NCBI GenBank assembly: GCA_024278235.1
Contig: JAJRTO010000100.1
Location: 1-37,398 of the forward strand
Source: Candidatus Poribacteria bacterium
GTDB taxonomy: Bacteria > Poribacteria > WGA-4E > JAJRTO01
Reading direction: 5' to 3'
DNA length: 37,398 bases
This document shows positions 5,540-35,051 of this stretch, one piece after another. How positions within the stretch are numbered: position 1 is the first letter of the stretch; every line of letters starts with the position of its first letter. Position numbers and translations under genes: made by a program. The notes beneath the pieces were generated by a model that made no database searches, was not told where the DNA came from, and saw only the letters and a list, made by a program, of their open reading frames with translations.

Positions 5540-5554
5540 TCAAGTATGATCCAC
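5515..5554. repeat. Perfect 20-bp tandem duplication over a stop codon
   Basis: The 20-base unit TGATCTCAAGTATGATCCAC occurs at 5515-5534 and again at 5535-5554 with no mismatch. The second copy contains the last codons and the stop (5540-5542) of the minus-strand UroD-like gene, so the first copy is a duplicate of its 3' end placed just after the stop. Zero divergence implies a recent slippage event, or an assembly artefact. Confidence 0.9.
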
Positions 5555-6607
5555 GAACCACTGGATGAGTGCATCTGCTTCTTTCTCGTTGCGAGCCGAG
5601 GTTTCGTAGAATACCAACTCCGGTTTCAGAATGCTGTGTAGATGCTTGATCTCCGCAGAGGAAGCACGGATATGCAGACTCTTACCGGCTTGCTGGATCC
5701 GGAGAAGCAATTCAGGCCACTGGGAGGGAGGGGGATTTCCAGCTCCGGGGACCCACTGGATGCCGTCCAGGCTTTCGATGGAAAGCACTGAATCCAGATG
5801 GACAAGCGCACCAGGTCCATCGTAGTGGTAGATACTATGATCCAGGAAATCACATTCTGCGGTGAGCACCGGCAAGATAAACTCGTCGAACATAGACGGG
5901 GAGAGCATGATTGCAAAATCGCATTGAGTCATGGCGAAGCGTTTCGGTGAATAGAACGAACACCACCCTATCGTTCCCCGTCCATCCATGTTGCCTGCTT
6001 CATAGAGTGCATTGTAAATGACAGGATAGAGTTCCTGTACGCTTTCTATGGCGCGATGGACCTGCTCAGGGACATCCAACAGATCCGTACAGAGGTCTTG
6101 TGGATCACGGATGCTTGCCAGCGCATCCACATTGCTGTGCATGTCGAGCATGCCAACCAGGAACTTGCCCTCAGAGGCGTCGCCGGCAACCCGCATGAAT
6201 TCCAGCATCTTCTTCCACCACGGGTTTTCAGGATCCAGCCGTAGCGGCAAGACTTCCTCCCAGTTCTCCACAAAAGGTACCGCCCAACTGGTCGCATTGT
6301 AGGCTGCCTCTGAACGTTCCAGATCTGCCCCAAGAAAAGCCCCAAACTGATCTGGACCGAATGACAGTTCGATGTAAGGGATCGCATCCCCGGCGAAATA
6401 GAGATGGGATGCCCTCGCTTCCCAACGAGTGATAGCCTCAGCAAAATTGCCATCCCAGCCAGCCATATAAGGTGGCCCTGGAGGAATCTCGTGACCCTCT
6501 TTGGGAGCCGTTACAGCCAGACAAGGGCGGTTGATGATTTCATGGTTCCAGAATGCTTCCCAATGAGTACGCGCTTCCTCAAAATCCGGTTTATAGAGCA
6601 AGTCCAT
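5540..6607 (-). CDS. Uroporphyrinogen decarboxylase-like (UroD superfamily) protein
   Basis: A 355-residue soluble protein resembling the UroD/MtaA superfamily found in clusters of sugar and methyl-group metabolism in environmental bacteria. Landmarks are an N-terminal helix with WEAFWNHEIINRP, a GWCSFYSPKRF segment, and a C-terminal DGIQWVPGAG barrel strand. The true heme-pathway enzyme has a conserved N-terminal RxPxWxMRQAGR segment, which is absent here, so this is not HemE. Related proteins may bind a methylated substrate or corrinoid partner, but none is encoded nearby. The ATG at 6607 is chosen because AAGGAGA lies about 8 bases upstream. Two open codon blocks further upstream lack such a site. 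Function unknown. Confidence 0.7.
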   Translation of the reverse strand: MDLLYKPDFEEARTHWEAFWNHEIINRPCLAVTAPKEGHEIPPGPPYMAGWDGNFAEAITRWEARASHLYFAGDAIPYIELSFGPDQFGAFLGADLERSEAAYNATSWAVPFVENWEEVLPLRLDPENPWWKKMLEFMRVAGDASEGKFLVGMLDMHSNVDALASIRDPQDLCTDLLDVPEQVHRAIESVQELYPVIYNALYEAGNMDGRGTIGWCSFYSPKRFAMTQCDFAIMLSPSMFDEFILPVLTAECDFLDHSIYHYDGPGALVHLDSVLSIESLDGIQWVPGAGNPPPSQWPELLLRIQQAGKSLHIRASSAEIKHLHSILKPELVFYETSARNEKEADALIQWFVDHT

Positions 6608-6649
6608 AAGCTGTTCTCCTTGATTATCATGATCTGAGATAGGCATCGT

Positions 6650-7968: not shown

Positions 7969-10065
7969 TTGGATTGGAGGCTACTGATTCGGAAACATCT
8001 GACGTGGTGGCATCTCTTTGTTGTTCTACTGGTGCTGCATCTTGCTCCCTTGTGGTTCTTCGCTTACTTTCCATCCCAGGATGGGGTGAGCCACATCTAC
8101 AATGCCCATACGCTGAAGGAATATCACAAACATGAAAACTACAAGATGCGGGATGTCTTCAAACTCAATATCACTATTTTCCCCAACTGGATGTCACATC
8201 TGGTGTTGGCGGCACTCCTTTATATTTTCCCTCCACTCATCGCTGAAAAAATCCTCCTGACGTTTGCCATCGGGCTCGTCCCTGTTTCATTCTTCTACTT
8301 CCTCAATGCTATCCATGGACGGGGATTTCTGTTCGGCTGGCTCGGCTTTCTGTTCTCATACAACTACCTTCTCTTGATGGGTTTCTACAACTTTGCCTTG
8401 AGCATCTCGTTTTTCTTCTTGTCTTTTGGCTACTGGTGGAAGCACAGGGAAGATCTTCGTGTGAAGCATGTTGCGGTGCTCTATGGGCTTCTGCTCGTAA
8501 CCTATCTCTGCCACATCGTCTCCTACGGCCTGGTGCTGCTGGCGATGTCAATCACGGCCTTCTGTCTGTGGGGTAGCGAAGCAATCGCTGATGCATGGAA
8601 GGAACGAAAGACGGGAAGCCGGGTCGCCATACTCAACAGCCTGCTACCGAAGCTGAAGCAACTCCTCCTGTTTGCGGGATACATGCTCCCGGCTTACTTC
8701 GTTCTGATGGGCTACTACCTGGATAGCCTGAAAACATATGATACTGGACATCACAGGGGCATGGATTGGATTTCTGATTACTTCTGGAATGTCAAATCAC
8801 TCGTCTATTTTACCGATTGGTATACGAGTATCCCGCTCTATATCCGAGGTTGGCATCTAAACCTCCATCACATTCTGTTGGTAGTCCTGGGAGCAGCCAT
8901 CATGAATTCATTGGTCTACCGTATCCGACGGAGACAATGGCTGCAAAAGACGGATCCATTCCTACTCATTACGATTATCTTTACGCTCATGTTCATCAAA
9001 GCTCCGTGGGGTTTTGGACCGGGAGGCTGGATCAATGATCGCATCCATATCTATATCCTTCTGATGCTGGCCGCATGGCTTGTGCCAGATATTGGAAAGA
9101 TCATGCGATATGGCCTCATAGGGGCCCTGGTTGCCATCTGCCTGGTTCACCTCGGACGCACTGTATACGATTGGGCTCGCCTTGATGGGGAGATTGCCGA
9201 GGCGGTCTCTGGTGCCCAGTTGATGGAGCCGCACACAGTGTATTCCATCCGCAGCCCCGATTGGTTTAAGTCCGACGCGCTGGGCACAGTGAAATACGTC
9301 ACCCCTTTCGTTCATGCAATGGCCTTGTATGGGCTGGCAGCGAACGATATCGGACACCTGGCAAACTACGAAGCTAACTACAAATACTTCCCCATCAACT
9401 ACAATGGAACCTATCAAGGTATGACGCACTATATCGTGGCATGGGCTTATCCGGAGGATGAGACATTTGCAGACATCACGCCGAATTACGACATCATCTA
9501 TGAAACCAAGAACCTGAAGCTATTCCGCATGAAGCTATCCAGTGAACCTGATCTTTCTTTGTGGAGTCGAACCTTCGATGAACGATTGATGATTCGCTTC
9601 GACATGCAGCCTCAGGATGGTGTTACAGCAGAGGGCTATCATGCCATTACCCAGAATACAGGCTATGTCACCGGTAGATTCGGGTGGGTTACGCAGTCGC
9701 CTCGCCATGATTTTCAGGGCAACCAGGAGATCGCTCCGCGTGATAGGGATTATGTTTGGGACACTGATGACGCCGCATTCACCGTCGATGTACCCAACGG
9801 CACTTATCGTGTGATCAACTCCTTTTGTTCAGGGGAAGATAGTACTCATGAAGTGAATATATTGGCGAACGACCAGCCGCTCATTGAGAAGTTCATCGTC
9901 CCTGCCGGCAAAGAGACCGTCGAGCAATCTTCCACTGTGACTGTAACGGAAGGGCATCTTACGCAGGTGATCTACACGTCAAAAAAGCGTGTCCCTGCTG
10001 GAGGAGAACACAATCACTGGATCTGGAATAGTTTTACTGTGGAGCAGCTTCCCCTTGATTTTTAG
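7969..10065 (+). CDS. GT-C-like polytopic membrane protein with C-terminal carbohydrate-binding-like domain
   Basis: A protein of about 698 residues. The first 400 residues contain many hydrophobic helices, from WWHLFVVLLVLHLAPLWFF onward, and the Asp in FPSQDGVSH after the first helix lies where GT-C glycosyltransferases keep their catalytic acid. The last 170 or so residues form a soluble beta-rich domain with FTVDVPNGTYRV, similar to malectin-like or rhamnogalacturonan-binding modules, presumably outside the inner membrane. It may transfer lipid-linked sugars or act in glycan assembly; no exact family assigned. The start is uncertain. The only upstream candidate is TTG at 7969, directly against an AGGAG. 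GGAGG at 7976-7980 would instead favour CTG 7984 or ATT 7987. An in-frame TAG at 7963 rules out earlier starts. Confidence 0.75.
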   Translation: MDWRLLIRKHLTWWHLFVVLLVLHLAPLWFFAYFPSQDGVSHIYNAHTLKEYHKHENYKMRDVFKLNITIFPNWMSHLVLAALLYIFPPLIAEKILLTFAIGLVPVSFFYFLNAIHGRGFLFGWLGFLFSYNYLLLMGFYNFALSISFFFLSFGYWWKHREDLRVKHVAVLYGLLLVTYLCHIVSYGLVLLAMSITAFCLWGSEAIADAWKERKTGSRVAILNSLLPKLKQLLLFAGYMLPAYFVLMGYYLDSLKTYDTGHHRGMDWISDYFWNVKSLVYFTDWYTSIPLYIRGWHLNLHHILLVVLGAAIMNSLVYRIRRRQWLQKTDPFLLITIIFTLMFIKAPWGFGPGGWINDRIHIYILLMLAAWLVPDIGKIMRYGLIGALVAICLVHLGRTVYDWARLDGEIAEAVSGAQLMEPHTVYSIRSPDWFKSDALGTVKYVTPFVHAMALYGLAANDIGHLANYEANYKYFPINYNGTYQGMTHYIVAWAYPEDETFADITPNYDIIYETKNLKLFRMKLSSEPDLSLWSRTFDERLMIRFDMQPQDGVTAEGYHAITQNTGYVTGRFGWVTQSPRHDFQGNQEIAPRDRDYVWDTDDAAFTVDVPNGTYRVINSFCSGEDSTHEVNILANDQPLIEKFIVPAGKETVEQSSTVTVTEGHLTQVIYTSKKRVPAGGEHNHWIWNSFTVEQLPLDF

Positions 10066-10323: not shown

Positions 10324-11610
10324 ATGGAGTGGACAACGCTGGCATCGTTGAGTTTCCTCAGCGTCGCCTTTGCGTCGGATGATACGGTTGAGAGGTTTCC
10401 AATAGGCTACTGGTATGGTCCTCCTGTCGAACATACCAGCGAGAAAACGTATGCCGAAATCGCCGCGGCCCATTTCAATTTGGCCCTTCCTCAAGGCACG
10501 GGTCCTCATCTACCAGAGCAAAATGTTGGGATGCTGGATGTGGCAGCATCGAACAGAATTCGTTGTATTGTTGCAGATGATCGCCTTTCACCGGATCTTC
10601 TTAAGCAACCTGATGGACTCGCGATCCTCGACAAGATCGTGAGTACTTACGAGAGCCATCCCGCTTTTTGGGGCTACTTTATCAAGGATGAACCGAGTTC
10701 GAAGGTGTTTGATGATCTTGCAGATCTACTGGATGCACTTGCTGATCGGGATCCCGATCATCCTGGATTCATCAACCTCTTTCCCAACTACGCGACTCCT
10801 GTTCAGTTGGGGATACGTGGTTATGAGGAATACGTGGAACGATACATGCAGGTGGTCCAACCCGAGATTCTGAGCTATGATCATTATCACTTTCTGAAGA
10901 ATGGCGACCGGCCGGGATTTTTCGAGAATTTACGACTGATTCGCGAAAAGGCCGAGAAATACGCTGTGCCGTTCTGGGCAATCTTGTTGTGTGTCACCCA
11001 CGGACCCTATCGTGATCTGACAGAAGCTGAATTACGGTGGGAAGTGTTTCATAGCCTGGCTTATGGAGCACAAGGAATCCTTTATTTCACCTACTGGACG
11101 CCTCCCTCTGACAAGAAATGGCATTGGCGCAACGGTATCATCTCATGGGATGGGCAGCAGACCGCGCATTATGCCCATGTTCAACGCATCAATGCTGTGA
11201 TTGAAACGCTCGGCCCAACCCTGATGTCATTGCTGTCCACAGGAATTTATCATAGCGGTCGTGTTCCGGAGAATGCAGAGGAGCTGTCTGAGGGAACCGC
11301 GATTTACCGTGCTCAGGGCGGTGATCTGACGTTCGGCTTCTTTGAAGATTCGGAAGAACAGGAGTGGGTACTCGTCGTCAATAGCAATTATCGTAAGGAA
11401 GTGCGGGCAACTTTGAGTATCGTTGAAACGGTGGATCAGGTCGATGAACTCGACAAAAACACCGGAAGAATGCGCCCTCTGCCCATTGGGAACACAGGGG
11501 ATGAACCGGTTCTTCAACTGATGTTAGCCCCCGTAGATGGCCGTTTATTACGTATTGGCAACGCTGTCCCTGTGGATGTGAAGGAAATCCCTGTGAGACG
11601 TCGATTCTGA
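10324..11610 (+). CDS. Glycoside hydrolase-like TIM-barrel protein, probably secreted
   Basis: A 428-residue protein. Residues 1-18 are a short hydrophobic signal ending AFAS. Residues 25-310 look like a TIM barrel of the beta-galactosidase/GH42-like clan: a strand-4 segment HPAFWGYFIKDEPS places Glu123 where an acid/base would sit, and QGILYFTYWTPP resembles a late barrel strand. Residues 330-428 look like a beta-sandwich tail. A clear second catalytic acid was not located, so activity is unproven. No strong ribosome site precedes the ATG, and an in-frame stop 10 codons upstream limits alternatives. The likely role is cleaving or binding sugars outside the cytoplasm. A promoter at 10055-10082 could drive it alone. 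Confidence 0.7.
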   Translation: MEWTTLASLSFLSVAFASDDTVERFPIGYWYGPPVEHTSEKTYAEIAAAHFNLALPQGTGPHLPEQNVGMLDVAASNRIRCIVADDRLSPDLLKQPDGLAILDKIVSTYESHPAFWGYFIKDEPSSKVFDDLADLLDALADRDPDHPGFINLFPNYATPVQLGIRGYEEYVERYMQVVQPEILSYDHYHFLKNGDRPGFFENLRLIREKAEKYAVPFWAILLCVTHGPYRDLTEAELRWEVFHSLAYGAQGILYFTYWTPPSDKKWHWRNGIISWDGQQTAHYAHVQRINAVIETLGPTLMSLLSTGIYHSGRVPENAEELSEGTAIYRAQGGDLTFGFFEDSEEQEWVLVVNSNYRKEVRATLSIVETVDQVDELDKNTGRMRPLPIGNTGDEPVLQLMLAPVDGRLLRIGNAVPVDVKEIPVRRRF

Positions 11611-29766: not shown

Positions 29767-32013
29767 TCACAGAAACTCCTTTGGCTTTTCGTTGAGTACG
29801 ATCCCCCAGACATCAGCAACACCCAGCATTTCTATCGCACGATCGAATGGCTTCTTACGTTTCCACCCTCGAGGACAATGAACCAGAATCACCCCGTCCG
29901 CCTGGGCAGCAAGAACGTGCGTCTCGGTGTTCGATAGGATCGAGCCACCGTCCATGAGGATCACATCGTAGGAGCCCTTGAAAGATGCCAGAAGTTCTGC
30001 AAATGCAGGCATACTCAGTATTTCGGATGCATTGGAGACAGGGATTCCAGCGAAGAGGAAATTCAGATTGCCGATGCCCATGACAGAGGCAATGACATCA
30101 GGCCCTAAATCTCCAAGAAGGAGATCGGATGCATTGCGAACAGCGTCATCCACTGTCGCTGATTCTAAGAGGATGTCCGTGATTCCAGGCACCCGACTCA
30201 ATCCAAAAGCGTCATGCAGTTGAGGATCCACCAGGTCACTCTCAATCAGGAGTGTCCGTTTGCCTGCCTGTGCAATAGCCACCGCCAGATTGGAGGTAAC
30301 CGTGGAGACACCTTCTCCAGGGCGAGCCGATGTGAATAGGATCAACAGCGGTTTGGGATCGGTCTCATGAAAGAGCACGTGAGTCCGTAGGTTACGGAAT
30401 GCTTCTGACCCCGGTACCAATGCTGCCGGCGGGGAAAGTTTAATGGCAGCATCGAGATCCCCATCAGTGGATGTATCAGCGGTGAATGGTTCCTTTTCCG
30501 TCCAGGCCCGGCTAAAGTCGATCTTCGGGATTCTCCCAATGATAGGTAGGCCAGGGTCCACATGGCTCTTTCCTGGTGTCGCATCTTTGGGTCGCCTGCC
30601 AACGGACGCAATCAAGCTGGACCACCTGTCTATGGATGGCCTCAGCTTGACCCACTTGTCGGTTGACGGGATGAGTCCTGGACGTTTGCCGATGGTAGGC
30701 AGCAAGCTGGGCCACTTCTCAACGGACAATGCCAATGCGACGAGCACTCCCACGATCAGCCCGCCCACAAGCCCATACAACATGCGAAGATAAGGAGGAT
30801 GAAGAGGCCGGGCTCGTACAGCATAGGCCACAACCATTCTTTCAGGCAGTGTACTTGCTGCCGTCTTCTTCTCCTGAACAGCCGTGAGTAATTCCCCAAA
30901 AATCTGAGATTGATCGTCGATCTCTCGCGTCAAGGTATCATATTCCGTCTGCAGCCGGAGCGCGGTTGGGGATGGCTTGTTCGGATTCCGTTTTTCTTCC
31001 TGGAGACGCGCGATCTCCTGAGTCACCTGTGCTGTCCGAGTCGCCAAAGCTTTCGATATCGCTGCTCCCAACGCCAATTTTGCATCGGCGATTGCCTGGG
31101 CGTTCTTTGCGATCAGCGGATGTTCCGGCATGTACTCCTGCAGGAACCGCATCTGTTTGTTCTCCAGCGATTGGATCTGCCTGAGAGCAGCATCCACATT
31201 GAGATCCGGAAGATAGGGACGAGCCGCAATCAATTGCAGAACAGGATCCTTGAGCTTCGCTATCGTTTGTCGAAGACGATTGAGTTCTGTCTTCCGAGCG
31301 TCGAGGGATGCCAGTTTCTTATCAAGATCCGCAATGCGTTCTTCCAAAGAGGTGGTGTCCTCAGTATTCACCGTGTTACGCGGTATAAAATTCGGGTACT
31401 CTCTGAGAAATGCTCGCCGTTTGGCATCCACTTCCTTAATCCGTCGATCGTAGTCAGCGAGTTGCTGCTCCATTTGAGAGATCTCGGCATCAACAACCCA
31501 CTGTTTGAGACGGATGTACTCTTCTGCGACCGTATTAGCTACAGCAACAGCATCCAGTGACGAAATCAGCCTGGCGGCAATTTGGATGATGTCAGAGTCT
31601 CCCTCTCTCTGTATGCGGAGGGCGGCATCGATCTCTTCTACCACGGTGGCGGCTTCCTGTGTGCTCTCCGCCTGATCGGATACGCCGATACGCTTGAAGT
31701 TGCCTATCGGTTCGTTGTAACGCCCTTCTGCATCCGAGTAGATCAACTCCTGTTCCTCAAGCTGAGCAAGGAGGAATGCAACGCGCTCCAACACAGGAAA
31801 ACTGTTGAGGATGGAAATATCGGATTGGATCTTTTCTGCTATGGTCAGCTCAGCGAGTCCTTCGTCTGATGAATCTAACAAAGGCTCCACGAGGCGAATT
31901 TGCGCAGTCGCCCATTTCACTGAACTGTATTGATGATAAAACCACATTAAAGCGGCCCCCAGCAGGGAGCAGAGTAGTAAGATCCACCAGTGACGAATGA
32001 ACCTGTTTTTCAT
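29767..32013 (-). CDS. Wzc-like chain-length / BY-kinase-type protein with defective ATPase
   Basis: A 748-residue inner-membrane protein. TM1 is at about 10-25 and TM2 at about 411-430. The large periplasmic part between them is Wzz-like with coiled coil at about 180-260 and 300-395. After TM2 a four-copy 10-residue repeat (433-472) leads to a P-loop ATPase of the bacterial tyrosine kinase type. Its Walker A reads PGEGVST: the invariant Lys is Val569. Walker A' is LLIESD and Walker B is VILMDGG. No tyrosine occurs in the last 60 residues, so the usual phospho-acceptor cluster is absent. It is probably not a kinase, although it keeps the fold and may gate export. It is the last gene of a three-gene operon and starts 6 bases after the Wza-like stop. 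Confidence 0.85.
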   Translation of the reverse strand: MKNRFIRHWWILLLCSLLGAALMWFYHQYSSVKWATAQIRLVEPLLDSSDEGLAELTIAEKIQSDISILNSFPVLERVAFLLAQLEEQELIYSDAEGRYNEPIGNFKRIGVSDQAESTQEAATVVEEIDAALRIQREGDSDIIQIAARLISSLDAVAVANTVAEEYIRLKQWVVDAEISQMEQQLADYDRRIKEVDAKRRAFLREYPNFIPRNTVNTEDTTSLEERIADLDKKLASLDARKTELNRLRQTIAKLKDPVLQLIAARPYLPDLNVDAALRQIQSLENKQMRFLQEYMPEHPLIAKNAQAIADAKLALGAAISKALATRTAQVTQEIARLQEEKRNPNKPSPTALRLQTEYDTLTREIDDQSQIFGELLTAVQEKKTAASTLPERMVVAYAVRARPLHPPYLRMLYGLVGGLIVGVLVALALSVEKWPSLLPTIGKRPGLIPSTDKWVKLRPSIDRWSSLIASVGRRPKDATPGKSHVDPGLPIIGRIPKIDFSRAWTEKEPFTADTSTDGDLDAAIKLSPPAALVPGSEAFRNLRTHVLFHETDPKPLLILFTSARPGEGVSTVTSNLAVAIAQAGKRTLLIESDLVDPQLHDAFGLSRVPGITDILLESATVDDAVRNASDLLLGDLGPDVIASVMGIGNLNFLFAGIPVSNASEILSMPAFAELLASFKGSYDVILMDGGSILSNTETHVLAAQADGVILVHCPRGWKRKKPFDRAIEMLGVADVWGIVLNEKPKEFL
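30598..30717 (-). repeat. Four 30-bp coding repeats in the kinase-like linker
   Basis: Four in-frame 30-base units encode KWPSLLPTIG, KRPGLIPSTD, KWVKLRPSID and RWSSLIASVG, with consensus [KR][WR]xxL(I/L/R)(P/A)(S/T)x[GD]. They lie just after the second membrane helix, at residues 433-472. The units have diverged at DNA level but keep exact length. Confidence 0.85.
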
Positions 32014-32019
32014 AGGGTC

Positions 32020-33243
32020 TTATTTCCTTGGGACATACGTGTGAACGTAGACGACATCCCCCTCTTTCAAGGTCAGCGTCTCATCCTGGAGCGACTGGCT
32101 ATAGGTGAAACTCAATCGTTGACCATCCTGGCGGAGGACTGAAACTCGAAGCCCTGTATGATCAGGAATCGTAGATCCACCCGCAGTGCGAATTACGTCT
32201 GCGAGGCTTTGACCGGAACGAAATGGTTGCAATCCCGGACTGTTCACCATACCAAACACAGCAACCTCAGTGGCCTCAGAGGATTGCTGCTTGGCGGGCA
32301 GGTAGACCACGTCTCCCGCACTTAGATTCAGATCCAAATCTTGAGCCAATAGTGTCTCCAGGTTCACGATATGGCGTTCATAGTCGCTTTCGACAATTCG
32401 GTACAGCGCAATGCGATTGAGATCTGCCTGAGAACCCCAACCACCAAGTCTCCTCAGTAGTTGGATGAGCTTCAGTTTCGGATGCCATTTATACTCACCA
32501 GCCGCTGCTATCCGTCGAAGTTCGCCCACCACAGTGATATACGGAACGGGATGTCGTCTGTGATGGATGGCTACGGAGAATCGTCGGAGATAAGGTTGAA
32601 GACGCTGTTCCAGGTGTTGTCGAAGCAACCCCAAAGGTAATCCTGCAACGGTCATTTTTCCTAATTCTCGATACTGAATTGTTTTGTCGGACTCGACCGT
32701 CACCTCGTCTCGGCGCATTGAACCCGTTTCCCAAAAGACAAAGATAACGAGTTGATCTCCAGGGCGTAGAACAGATGCTTCCTCCATTGAAGAGTCTGCA
32801 ACGTTGGATGTAGGGCCGATCAGAGTGGATGGTCTGGCCTCATCGAACATGAACCGAATGGAACGTCGAGTATGCTCGACAATCGGTGGCTGTTCCCAGT
32901 CTGCGATGAGCAGCATCCCCCCCGGCTGTGGACGAACCTGGAGCCGCGTCACAGGCCCCATGTTGATTCGGGATTCCCGAGGCTCATCATCTTGTAGAAA
33001 AATGCCACGTATGAAGATCTTCAGTTGGCCTGCATCATTAGCAAGTATCTTATAGCGCGGGATGTTAAAGGGACGTAGCTCATATACCTTGCGTCCGGGA
33101 TAGAATGAGAAGGTCAGCCAGTCACCATGAGTCGATGGAATCTGAGCCAGTTCCGTCTGCGCAGAGCAAACCGCTGCAAAGATGAATCCACCAAGCAACC
33201 ATAGAATCCATTGGGGACATAACGGGTAAAACCACCGTCTCAA
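32020..33243 (-). CDS. Wza-like polysaccharide export protein with N-terminal AMIN-like domain
   Basis: A 407-residue exported protein. The TTG at 33243 is chosen because GGGAGG (33257-33252) lies 8 bases upstream; a GTG three codons earlier overlaps that site. A signal with a long hydrophobic core (WILWLLGGFIFAAVCSA) is followed, at about 45-135, by a beta-rich AMIN-like domain (ILANDAGQLKIFIRG, MLLIADWEQPP) that may bind peptidoglycan. Then comes a Poly_export domain beginning LRPGDQLVIFVFWE, and two SLBB domains (YITVVGELRRIAAAGEYKW and VAVFGMVNSPGLQPF). There is no lipobox Cys and no clear C-terminal outer-membrane helix as in Wza. It would carry polysaccharide through the periplasm with the Wzc-like partner next to it. 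Confidence 0.88.
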   Translation of the reverse strand: MRRWFYPLCPQWILWLLGGFIFAAVCSAQTELAQIPSTHGDWLTFSFYPGRKVYELRPFNIPRYKILANDAGQLKIFIRGIFLQDDEPRESRINMGPVTRLQVRPQPGGMLLIADWEQPPIVEHTRRSIRFMFDEARPSTLIGPTSNVADSSMEEASVLRPGDQLVIFVFWETGSMRRDEVTVESDKTIQYRELGKMTVAGLPLGLLRQHLEQRLQPYLRRFSVAIHHRRHPVPYITVVGELRRIAAAGEYKWHPKLKLIQLLRRLGGWGSQADLNRIALYRIVESDYERHIVNLETLLAQDLDLNLSAGDVVYLPAKQQSSEATEVAVFGMVNSPGLQPFRSGQSLADVIRTAGGSTIPDHTGLRVSVLRQDGQRLSFTYSQSLQDETLTLKEGDVVYVHTYVPRK

Positions 33244-33260
33244 GGAAAGCACCTCCCAAG

Positions 33261-35051
33261 CTAACGTTCAACTTGCTGTTCATTCGTGGTGATAATGATT
33301 TCAACTCGGCGATTCTGCTGTGGATCGCGTTCATCGATTGGACGGAGCCGACCATAACCGATCATCGACAGACGATATGCAGGAATCGACTCCCGTTCGA
33401 CCAGGTATGTAAACACCTTCGCTGCTCGCTCCGCCGAGAGACGCATATTTGCTGTATCATCGCCTGAATCGTCCGCATGGCCTTCAATGTTTATTTCTGC
33501 ATTCGGATGCGTACGGATGGCCTGTGCAGCAACCTTCAAGGATTTGTAGGCACTCTCCCGGATGTCGACCGCATCTAGCTCAAATAGAACATCCGCTGCA
33601 ATCACGATACGCTCGATGATATGTTCTCGCTCCGAGATCGTCACGATCTGGGGCGACGATACATAGCGTTGGCCAGAACGATGGCGTCCTTCTAACCAGA
33701 ACGTGTAATTTCCCATTGGGAGCGGTTCGCCCTCATCATCGTTCCCATCCCATACGATTCTGGCAGGGAGCGGGGCAACGGGTGATCTATACACGGTTTT
33801 TCCCGTTGGGCCATGGATACTCAGGAAGAAATCCCAGTCCTTGAGAGTTTCAAGCGATTCGGATGTCACCGAGAACTCTGTCGTATCATCGACACCGTCT
33901 TGATCCGGGGTGAAAATCATCGGTACACAAGCGATGCGTATCCGGGGCAATGGGACATCTACCGACTCATCCTGCTGTCCGGCAGGGATTGGGTTTTCTT
34001 TCACACGAATATCTGAATTCTGTCCCGCAGATGTTCCATCGAAAGCGGATGTGTCCTGTGTCCTGAGTGCCGAATGCTGAGGGGTTTGGACAGGTGAACT
34101 GGTGACACTGTTTGCTCGGGGGGATGGTCGCTGTACCAATGCCAGTGAAGGAGGTAGATTCGAGCCACCGAAAGTGTAATGGATCTGGAAACTGTGGATT
34201 GCGTCTCTCGACAGTTTCTGTTCCCAGGCATAATCCAATCCCAGGCCATTCCACACCAGGCCCATCCCGGCAGCCATCTGACCGTCTCCTTGAGTGGCTC
34301 TGCGGTAACCTATCCTGACAAACAGAGGTTGAAGAATCCTCATTTCCATTCCAGCTTTCAGCCGTGGATCATCCTCCCCCACCCGGCTCAGTTCTGCATG
34401 GACCGTGGCGGCATGCTTGAGCGATAGAATATAGCTCGTACCAATTCGCCAACTGAGCGGCAGAGGTTCTGAGTACTGCATCCGACGTACATGAGGCCCC
34501 ATGTTCTGTATTGCTGCCCCAAAAGCAACCCGCCCCCGCTCGGGCCGGGCCAATATACCCACATCCAGGGCGATCCCTTCAACCGTCTCCGGTTCCGTAA
34601 ATCCACGGAGATCCATCCCCAGAGAGAGGAAATTTTTGCCGTTGTTTTGGATTCGCCAGCCCAACCCCACAGACAAGGTACGACGGCGATGTTGTACCCA
34701 GAAACTGCCACTCAAAGACGCACTGGGACTGACAGGCACGGCAATACCTATCGCTCGTTCTTGCCGCTGAACCTTCAAAGCCATTTGCAAATGTTGTATC
34801 TGTGCAATCCCTGCGCTATTAGCGTGAAAACCGAGCGCATCATCTCCTTGTGAAACGAAAGCGTTGCCAATACCGTCTGCTCTGACGCTCTGGAGCGATT
34901 CGAGAAAATCCTCGGATAGGATGGCTGCTTCACTTAGACCTATGACAGACCAGCAGAAAACGAGCAGTAGAATGAACACAGGAGATTTTCTCTGAAAACA
35001 GCTCTCGAGCTGAGAACAGTGACTAGAGTTCTTGGCCTGTTGGGCCTTCAA
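33261..35051 (-). CDS. PorV/PorQ-like beta-barrel fused to an Ig-like segment and an OmpA domain
   Basis: A protein of about 596 residues. After a signal (VFILLLVFCWSVIGLSEA), residues 50-320 resemble PorV/PorQ-type outer-membrane barrels: LESLQSVRADGIGNAFVSQGDDALGFHANSAGIAQ is the family start (quoted here as the region at about 51-85). A polar low-complexity linker at 325-395 follows, then an Ig-like FTPDQDGVDDTTEFSV segment of the CHU_C/FlgD type. The C-terminal OmpA domain (about 500-590) carries INIEGHADDSG and NRRVEI for peptidoglycan binding. The start is unsure: TTG at 35051 has no ribosome site, and a GTG at 34979 would shorten the signal. It is the first gene of the envelope operon, 17 bases before the Wza-like gene. 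Confidence 0.82.
   Translation of the reverse strand: MKAQQAKNSSHCSQLESCFQRKSPVFILLLVFCWSVIGLSEAAILSEDFLESLQSVRADGIGNAFVSQGDDALGFHANSAGIAQIQHLQMALKVQRQERAIGIAVPVSPSASLSGSFWVQHRRRTLSVGLGWRIQNNGKNFLSLGMDLRGFTEPETVEGIALDVGILARPERGRVAFGAAIQNMGPHVRRMQYSEPLPLSWRIGTSYILSLKHAATVHAELSRVGEDDPRLKAGMEMRILQPLFVRIGYRRATQGDGQMAAGMGLVWNGLGLDYAWEQKLSRDAIHSFQIHYTFGGSNLPPSLALVQRPSPRANSVTSSPVQTPQHSALRTQDTSAFDGTSAGQNSDIRVKENPIPAGQQDESVDVPLPRIRIACVPMIFTPDQDGVDDTTEFSVTSESLETLKDWDFFLSIHGPTGKTVYRSPVAPLPARIVWDGNDDEGEPLPMGNYTFWLEGRHRSGQRYVSSPQIVTISEREHIIERIVIAADVLFELDAVDIRESAYKSLKVAAQAIRTHPNAEINIEGHADDSGDDTANMRLSAERAAKVFTYLVERESIPAYRLSMIGYGRLRPIDERDPQQNRRVEIIITTNEQQVER

Follow-up and report, generated by a model that had tools for sequence, protein, structure and literature searches.

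The PCP-2a BY-kinase Wzc of E. coli is one of the closest known systems to the protein studied here. Autophosphorylation of the Wzc tail dismantles its octamers, and the K540M variant, which is not phosphorylated, assembles into a stable octamer held partly by the tyrosine tail inserted in the neighboring active site (PMC8285477). This K540M octamer binds Wza (PMC12881504), so that ring assembly proceeds without need of that lysine. A BY pseudokinase, EcpK of Myxococcus xanthus, has been studied experimentally, and a phosphorylation-independent scaffold role has been proposed for EcpK/EpsV from genetic and interaction data (PMC12004946). Fused PCP-2/BY pseudokinases are described in the part of PMC12004946 that cites Cuthbertson et al. 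2009, namely S. meliloti SMc01795, Vibrio vulnificus VV1_2305 and proteins of Brucella ceti and Mesorhizobium japonicum. Stand-alone and fused BY pseudokinases are already known, and what is new here is a fused one in Poribacteria.

The gene is located in a stretch of 37,398 nucleotides (contig JAJRTO010000100.1, assembly GCA_024278235.1, Candidatus Poribacteria bacterium), which is referred to as the window. Its product is probably a lineage-specific BY pseudokinase fused to a PCP-2a co-polymerase, serving as a phosphorylation-independent scaffold for the adjoining OPX protein.

Domain organization and predicted structure

The gene (29767..32013, minus strand) codes for a PCP-2a/Wzc-like protein of 748 amino acids with a degenerate BY-kinase domain. 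The limits and strand of this frame, its 748 codons, the P-loop PGEGVST and the codon GTC at 30309-30307 (Val569) had been reported in a previous sequence-only reading and were all exact. Residues 1-431 (30721..32013, minus strand) include TM1 (predicted helix 2-30), a long periplasmic helical region and TM2 (helix 407-431), as deduced from the AlphaFold2 model, a weak TIGR03007 match and homology to kin proteins. A low-confidence insertion containing Trp and Pro (residues 432-487; 30553..30720, minus strand) constitutes a linker directly after TM2, with W-x-x-L / P-S-I-like patterns, which is longer than in the three nearest relatives, where an ESLDTSxxTxxDLE-type stretch is present. A true DNA tandem repeat was considered for this linker and was unsupported, the matches being short and degenerate only.

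The BY-kinase fold, predicted to be pseudo-active, occupies residues 529-748 (29770..30429, minus strand). On the same strand are encoded the oligomerization motif EX2RX2R described in PMC3795738, which is kept as EAFRNLR (residues 537-543; 30385..30405), the Walker A motif PGEGVST (residues 565-571; 30301..30321), the Walker A' motif TLLIESDLVDP (residues 587-597; 30223..30255), the Walker B motif VILMDGGS (residues 684-691; 29941..29964) and a C-terminus that reads EKPKEFL after Asn741, followed by the stop codon (29767..29790). Residues 511-742 matched the NCBIfam models EpsG, eps_fam and Wzc, each under its curated cut-off, and the Pfam AAA_31 match was above cut-off. The best solved relatives by sequence were CapAB, BceF, VpsO and Wzc.

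The AlphaFold2 model, built on an alignment of 54 sequences, had a mean pLDDT of 80.6 and a pTM of 0.46. Confidence was good for the kinase part (blocks of the domain mostly at pLDDT 82-97) and for the periplasmic part, and the linker 434-487 was unmodelled. Foldseek gave a TM-score of 0.85, normalized to the target, between the kinase domain and CapA2B2, and 0.75-0.85 for the CapAB structures; this agreement is favored by an alignment made of Lys-bearing homologues, which leads the model to the canonical fold. The top Foldseek matches were full-length Wzc, with a low global TM-score (about 0.27-0.40), probably because the relative placement of the domains is undetermined in a model with that pTM. 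According to the model and Foldseek, two transmembrane helices, a periplasmic helical domain and a BY-kinase fold are combined in a single chain, as in the PCP-2a layout.

Loss of catalytic residues and of the tyrosine tail

The protein was compared with 117 kinase-domain homologues, of which 80 loci were obtained from a scan of the contig collection with patterns that did not include the P-loop, and the others from whole-genome searches. A single-sequence scan of the same collection found no relative, whereas the alignment-based scan did find them. Lysine occupies position 569 in all 116 homologues covering it, and it is encoded by AAG or AAA in the nearest relatives, codons that differ from GTC at all three bases. 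Among the loci read from class- and phylum-wide searches, no second sequence had a residue other than Lys at this position. In Walker A', whose active form reads DxDxR, Arg595 (98% of homologues) is replaced by Val (ESDLV, with Asp593 kept), and in Walker B, Pro691 (Pro in 115 of 115 elsewhere) is replaced by Ser, with Asp688 kept. The protein deviates at eight of the 32 columns conserved at 90% or more, and the three of these eight that are at least 98% conserved are precisely Lys569, Arg595 and Pro691, one in each of Walker A, A' and B. Residues E537, R540, R543, S562, E567, G568, G610, G656, D688, D706 and G737 are kept, as are Ser570 and Asp593. The change of Asp to Glu at position 591 was rejected as a catalytic loss because other homologues vary there too. 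The sequence-only reading, which called the remainder of the fold intact, is right as far as the predicted fold goes; the active site is another matter, as it carries the changes at Arg595 and Pro691 that this reading had missed.

The last tyrosine of the protein is residue 682, so that the absence of tyrosines noted previously for the last 60 residues extends over the final 66. No hidden tyrosine tail was found downstream of the stop codon in any of three frames. A tail of about 25-30 residues with 4-6 tyrosines is present in the nearest relatives and missing here, and a tyrosine-containing tail is borne by all homologues whose C-terminus is intact; the only others with zero tail tyrosines, L044 (at a contig edge) and L085 (with a broken frame), are shortened ORFs. 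The combination of the three losses with the absence of the whole tail was found in this protein only, among the homologues. Several catalytic features have been lost jointly, while fold, frame and oligomerization motif are kept, and for this reason the pseudokinase assignment made earlier is supported by the sequence comparison.

Another kind of change was observed in 20 Wzc-like proteins (L048, L050-L052, L056-L060, L062, L065, L068, L071, L072, L075, L079, L082, L086, L091 and L096), 19 of them titled Rokuibacteriota/Rokubacteria and one Chloroflexi. They keep the Walker A Lys, but both Asp positions of Walker A' are occupied by non-acidic residues (VGANLRRP/VGGNMRRP and similar). These proteins have a long C-terminal extension, in which a tyrosine cluster is followed by a hydrophobic, probably membrane-spanning segment in the four that were read, and a SPOR domain was present in the two scanned. 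This group may be a stronger case of changed BY-kinase chemistry than the window protein, because its loss is common to a clade. Two Wzc-like proteins titled Deltaproteobacteria (L073 and L049) also extend at the C-terminus past the tyrosine cluster and carry a hydrophobic segment there, with a SPOR domain in L073.

Phylogeny and divergence of the locus

The three nearest relatives are all from Poribacteria (contigs DTYX01000748.1, JADFGN010000016.1 and JAPUIP010000450.1). Their contig identity was checked by sequence, and their genomes belong to the same class as that of the window. They share with the window protein the SDLLxG insertion in the domain and an OPX gene upstream, and differ from it in their motifs: their P-loop has EGK, Walker A' ends in LRRP or WRRP, Walker B contains PP and the tail bears 4-6 tyrosines. 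In a tree computed with the motif columns taken out, the window protein joined these three proteins with an SH-aLRT of 96. All close homologues in the alignment have Lys at position 569, so the valine, or any other residue in place of Lys, is not conserved there; by this comparison, the loss of the catalytic site is a single-lineage event. As the nearest relatives and branch neighbors in Poribacteria keep Lys, the sequence data suggest that the fused pseudokinase in this phylum had an origin separate from that of the earlier fused cases.

With the motif columns removed, the end branch of the window protein's domain was 1.47, versus 0.14-0.30 in the relatives. Identity to the relatives, compared with that among the relatives themselves, was 42% versus 53-57% for the kinase domain, 16-23% versus 27-31% for the periplasmic part and 23-27% versus 35% for OPX. 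PNPase identity was 72% between the window genome and that of the relative G004 and 68% between G004 and G060; being no lower than between relatives, it indicates that the acceleration is specific to the locus.

Gene neighborhood and genome context

Directly upstream of the PCP/pseudokinase gene lies the gene for an OPX protein of 410 amino acids with Poly_export and SLBB domains (32020..33252, minus strand), preceded by that of a protein combining a PorV-like beta-barrel, a FlgD-Ig-like/CHU_C region and an OmpA domain (33261..35051, minus strand), the barrel of which matches a PorV/UPF0164-like gene located close to the operon of the relatives. The minus-strand cassette therefore reads PorV/OmpA-like protein, OPX and PCP/pseudokinase. 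In the relatives, OPX is followed by PCP/kinase, with a PorV-like gene nearby in G059 and G060, and a Wzy_C gene is located between the kinase and the PorV-like gene in G060. The OPX proteins of the relatives (L040, L041 and L042) are 733-1367 amino acids long, versus 410 in the window, and several SLBB domains were present in the two scanned. Three long ORFs of the window (7969-10065, 10324-11610 and 5540-6646) had no Pfam match at 1e-5.

No Wzy or glycosyltransferase domain was recognized among the 20 window proteins scanned, nor was any phosphatase gene recognized in the window near the PCP/pseudokinase gene. Two Wzy_C (PF04932) genes are present in the genome, both on other contigs; in the PF13425 search of the genome, the controls gave no signal. 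Elsewhere in this genome there are four more OPX genes and three more BY-kinases, all Lys-bearing, the latter being distant from the window protein (35-44% over short stretches) and located in other loci. The coding signature of the kinase domain is like that of the neighboring genes, and no frameshifts were found in the three cassette ORFs.

Proposed role and alternative explanations

As Lys569, Arg595, Pro691 and the tyrosine tail are all missing, a cycle of ATP-driven phosphorylation of the tail would not be possible, and the protein is presumed from these losses to lack catalysis. It would form a ring through the kept EX2RX2R motif and its transmembrane and periplasmic parts, and this ring would keep the neighboring OPX exporter in a standing channel, whose control would come from expression or partner binding and not from phosphorylation. 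Loss of the Lys should block ring disassembly, because Wzc K540M stays octameric and it is tail autophosphorylation that dismantles octamers. Loss of the tail would take away both the phosphorylation substrate and one contact holding the ring, and the tail that helps to stabilize the Wzc K540M octamer is indeed missing here, which is a counterpoint to the proposed scaffold function. Cohesion of the ring would then fall to the EX2RX2R motif and to the transmembrane and periplasmic parts, perhaps with help from the new linker. A more specific proposal is that a phosphorylation-cycled ring of the Wzc type was converted, in one Poribacteria lineage, into one that is always assembled or is gated in another way, in which the new linker after TM2 replaced the tyrosine tail in stabilizing the oligomer; this is regarded as speculative and unlikely in such detail.

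Among the alternatives, the one that survives best, although rather unlikely, is that a redundant export cassette is in early decay, with catalysis lost by relaxed constraint and no important role left. Consistent with decay are the fast divergence of the whole locus beside normal PNPase divergence, the long end branch of the kinase domain, the lack of any Wzy, glycosyltransferase or phosphatase gene recognized nearby in the window, when Wzy_C adjoins the kinase in G060, and the other BY-kinases and OPX genes of the genome. The long branch and the unusually diverged periplasmic part and OPX would fit relaxed constraint as well as a new function. The 748 open codons and the normal coding signature speak against advanced decay, as the sequence-only reading had maintained in denying plain decay. 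Against early decay stand these features too, together with the unbroken frames of the three cassette ORFs and the retention of the invariant structural residues, the three best-conserved lost positions being all catalytic.

A role as dominant partner or regulator in mixed octamers with an active BY-kinase of the same cell is improbable. Three Lys-bearing paralogues are available in the genome and the EX2RX2R motif is kept, but these paralogues are distant and belong to other loci, the protein has no tyrosine tail to be phosphorylated, and the authors of the EcpK study argue that such pseudokinases are independent of active BY-kinases (PMC12004946). Even less probable is that ATP is still bound or hydrolyzed through a non-canonical P-loop and another substrate is used: Gly568, Ser570, Asp593 and Asp688 would be in place for it, but one key residue is gone from each Walker motif, and mutation of the equivalent Lys abolishes Wzc phosphorylation (PMC8285477). 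An error of sequencing or assembly, conceivable for a single sequence from a fragmented draft genome of 536 contigs, is hardly credible because three bases of one codon would have to be wrong, residues 595 and 691 altered independently and the tail cleanly removed, with the frame unbroken throughout. Such an error had been the proviso under which Lys in all close homologues was to count against the pseudokinase; the homologues do all carry Lys, but the error is unsupported.

As a fused BY pseudokinase beside Lys-bearing relatives, the window protein forms with them a natural before/after pair, in which the need of polysaccharide export for the phosphorylation cycle can be examined. By itself the protein does not establish a new mechanism.

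Comparison with known systems

Like E. coli Wzc, the window protein has two transmembrane helices, a periplasmic helical region and a cytoplasmic BY-kinase fold in one polypeptide, with an adjoining OPX gene; unlike Wzc, it lacks the Lys and the tyrosine tail, as well as the Arg of Walker A' and the Pro of Walker B, and has a long post-TM2 linker containing Trp and Pro. A control logic different from that of Wzc, as first suggested from the sequence, is plausible, but it has precedents in phosphorylation-independent PCP-2 proteins working with BY pseudokinases (PMC12004946). EcpK and HfsB (with HfsA, Caulobacter) resemble the window protein in having a BY-kinase fold without catalytic motifs that is tied to polysaccharide export, and EcpK likewise has no tail tyrosines (PMC12004946). 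The window protein thus shows the fold without catalytic motifs and tyrosine tail that characterizes the EcpK/HfsB kind, with motif remnants present, but not a degenerate state conserved in orthologues, the nearest relatives all having Lys. No motif remnants exist in EcpK, whereas Walker A, A' and B are each partly preserved here. EcpK and HfsB are stand-alone proteins, whereas the window pseudokinase is fused to the co-polymerase, as in the four earlier fused pseudokinases, which are known here by description only and also join co-polymerase and pseudokinase in one polypeptide.
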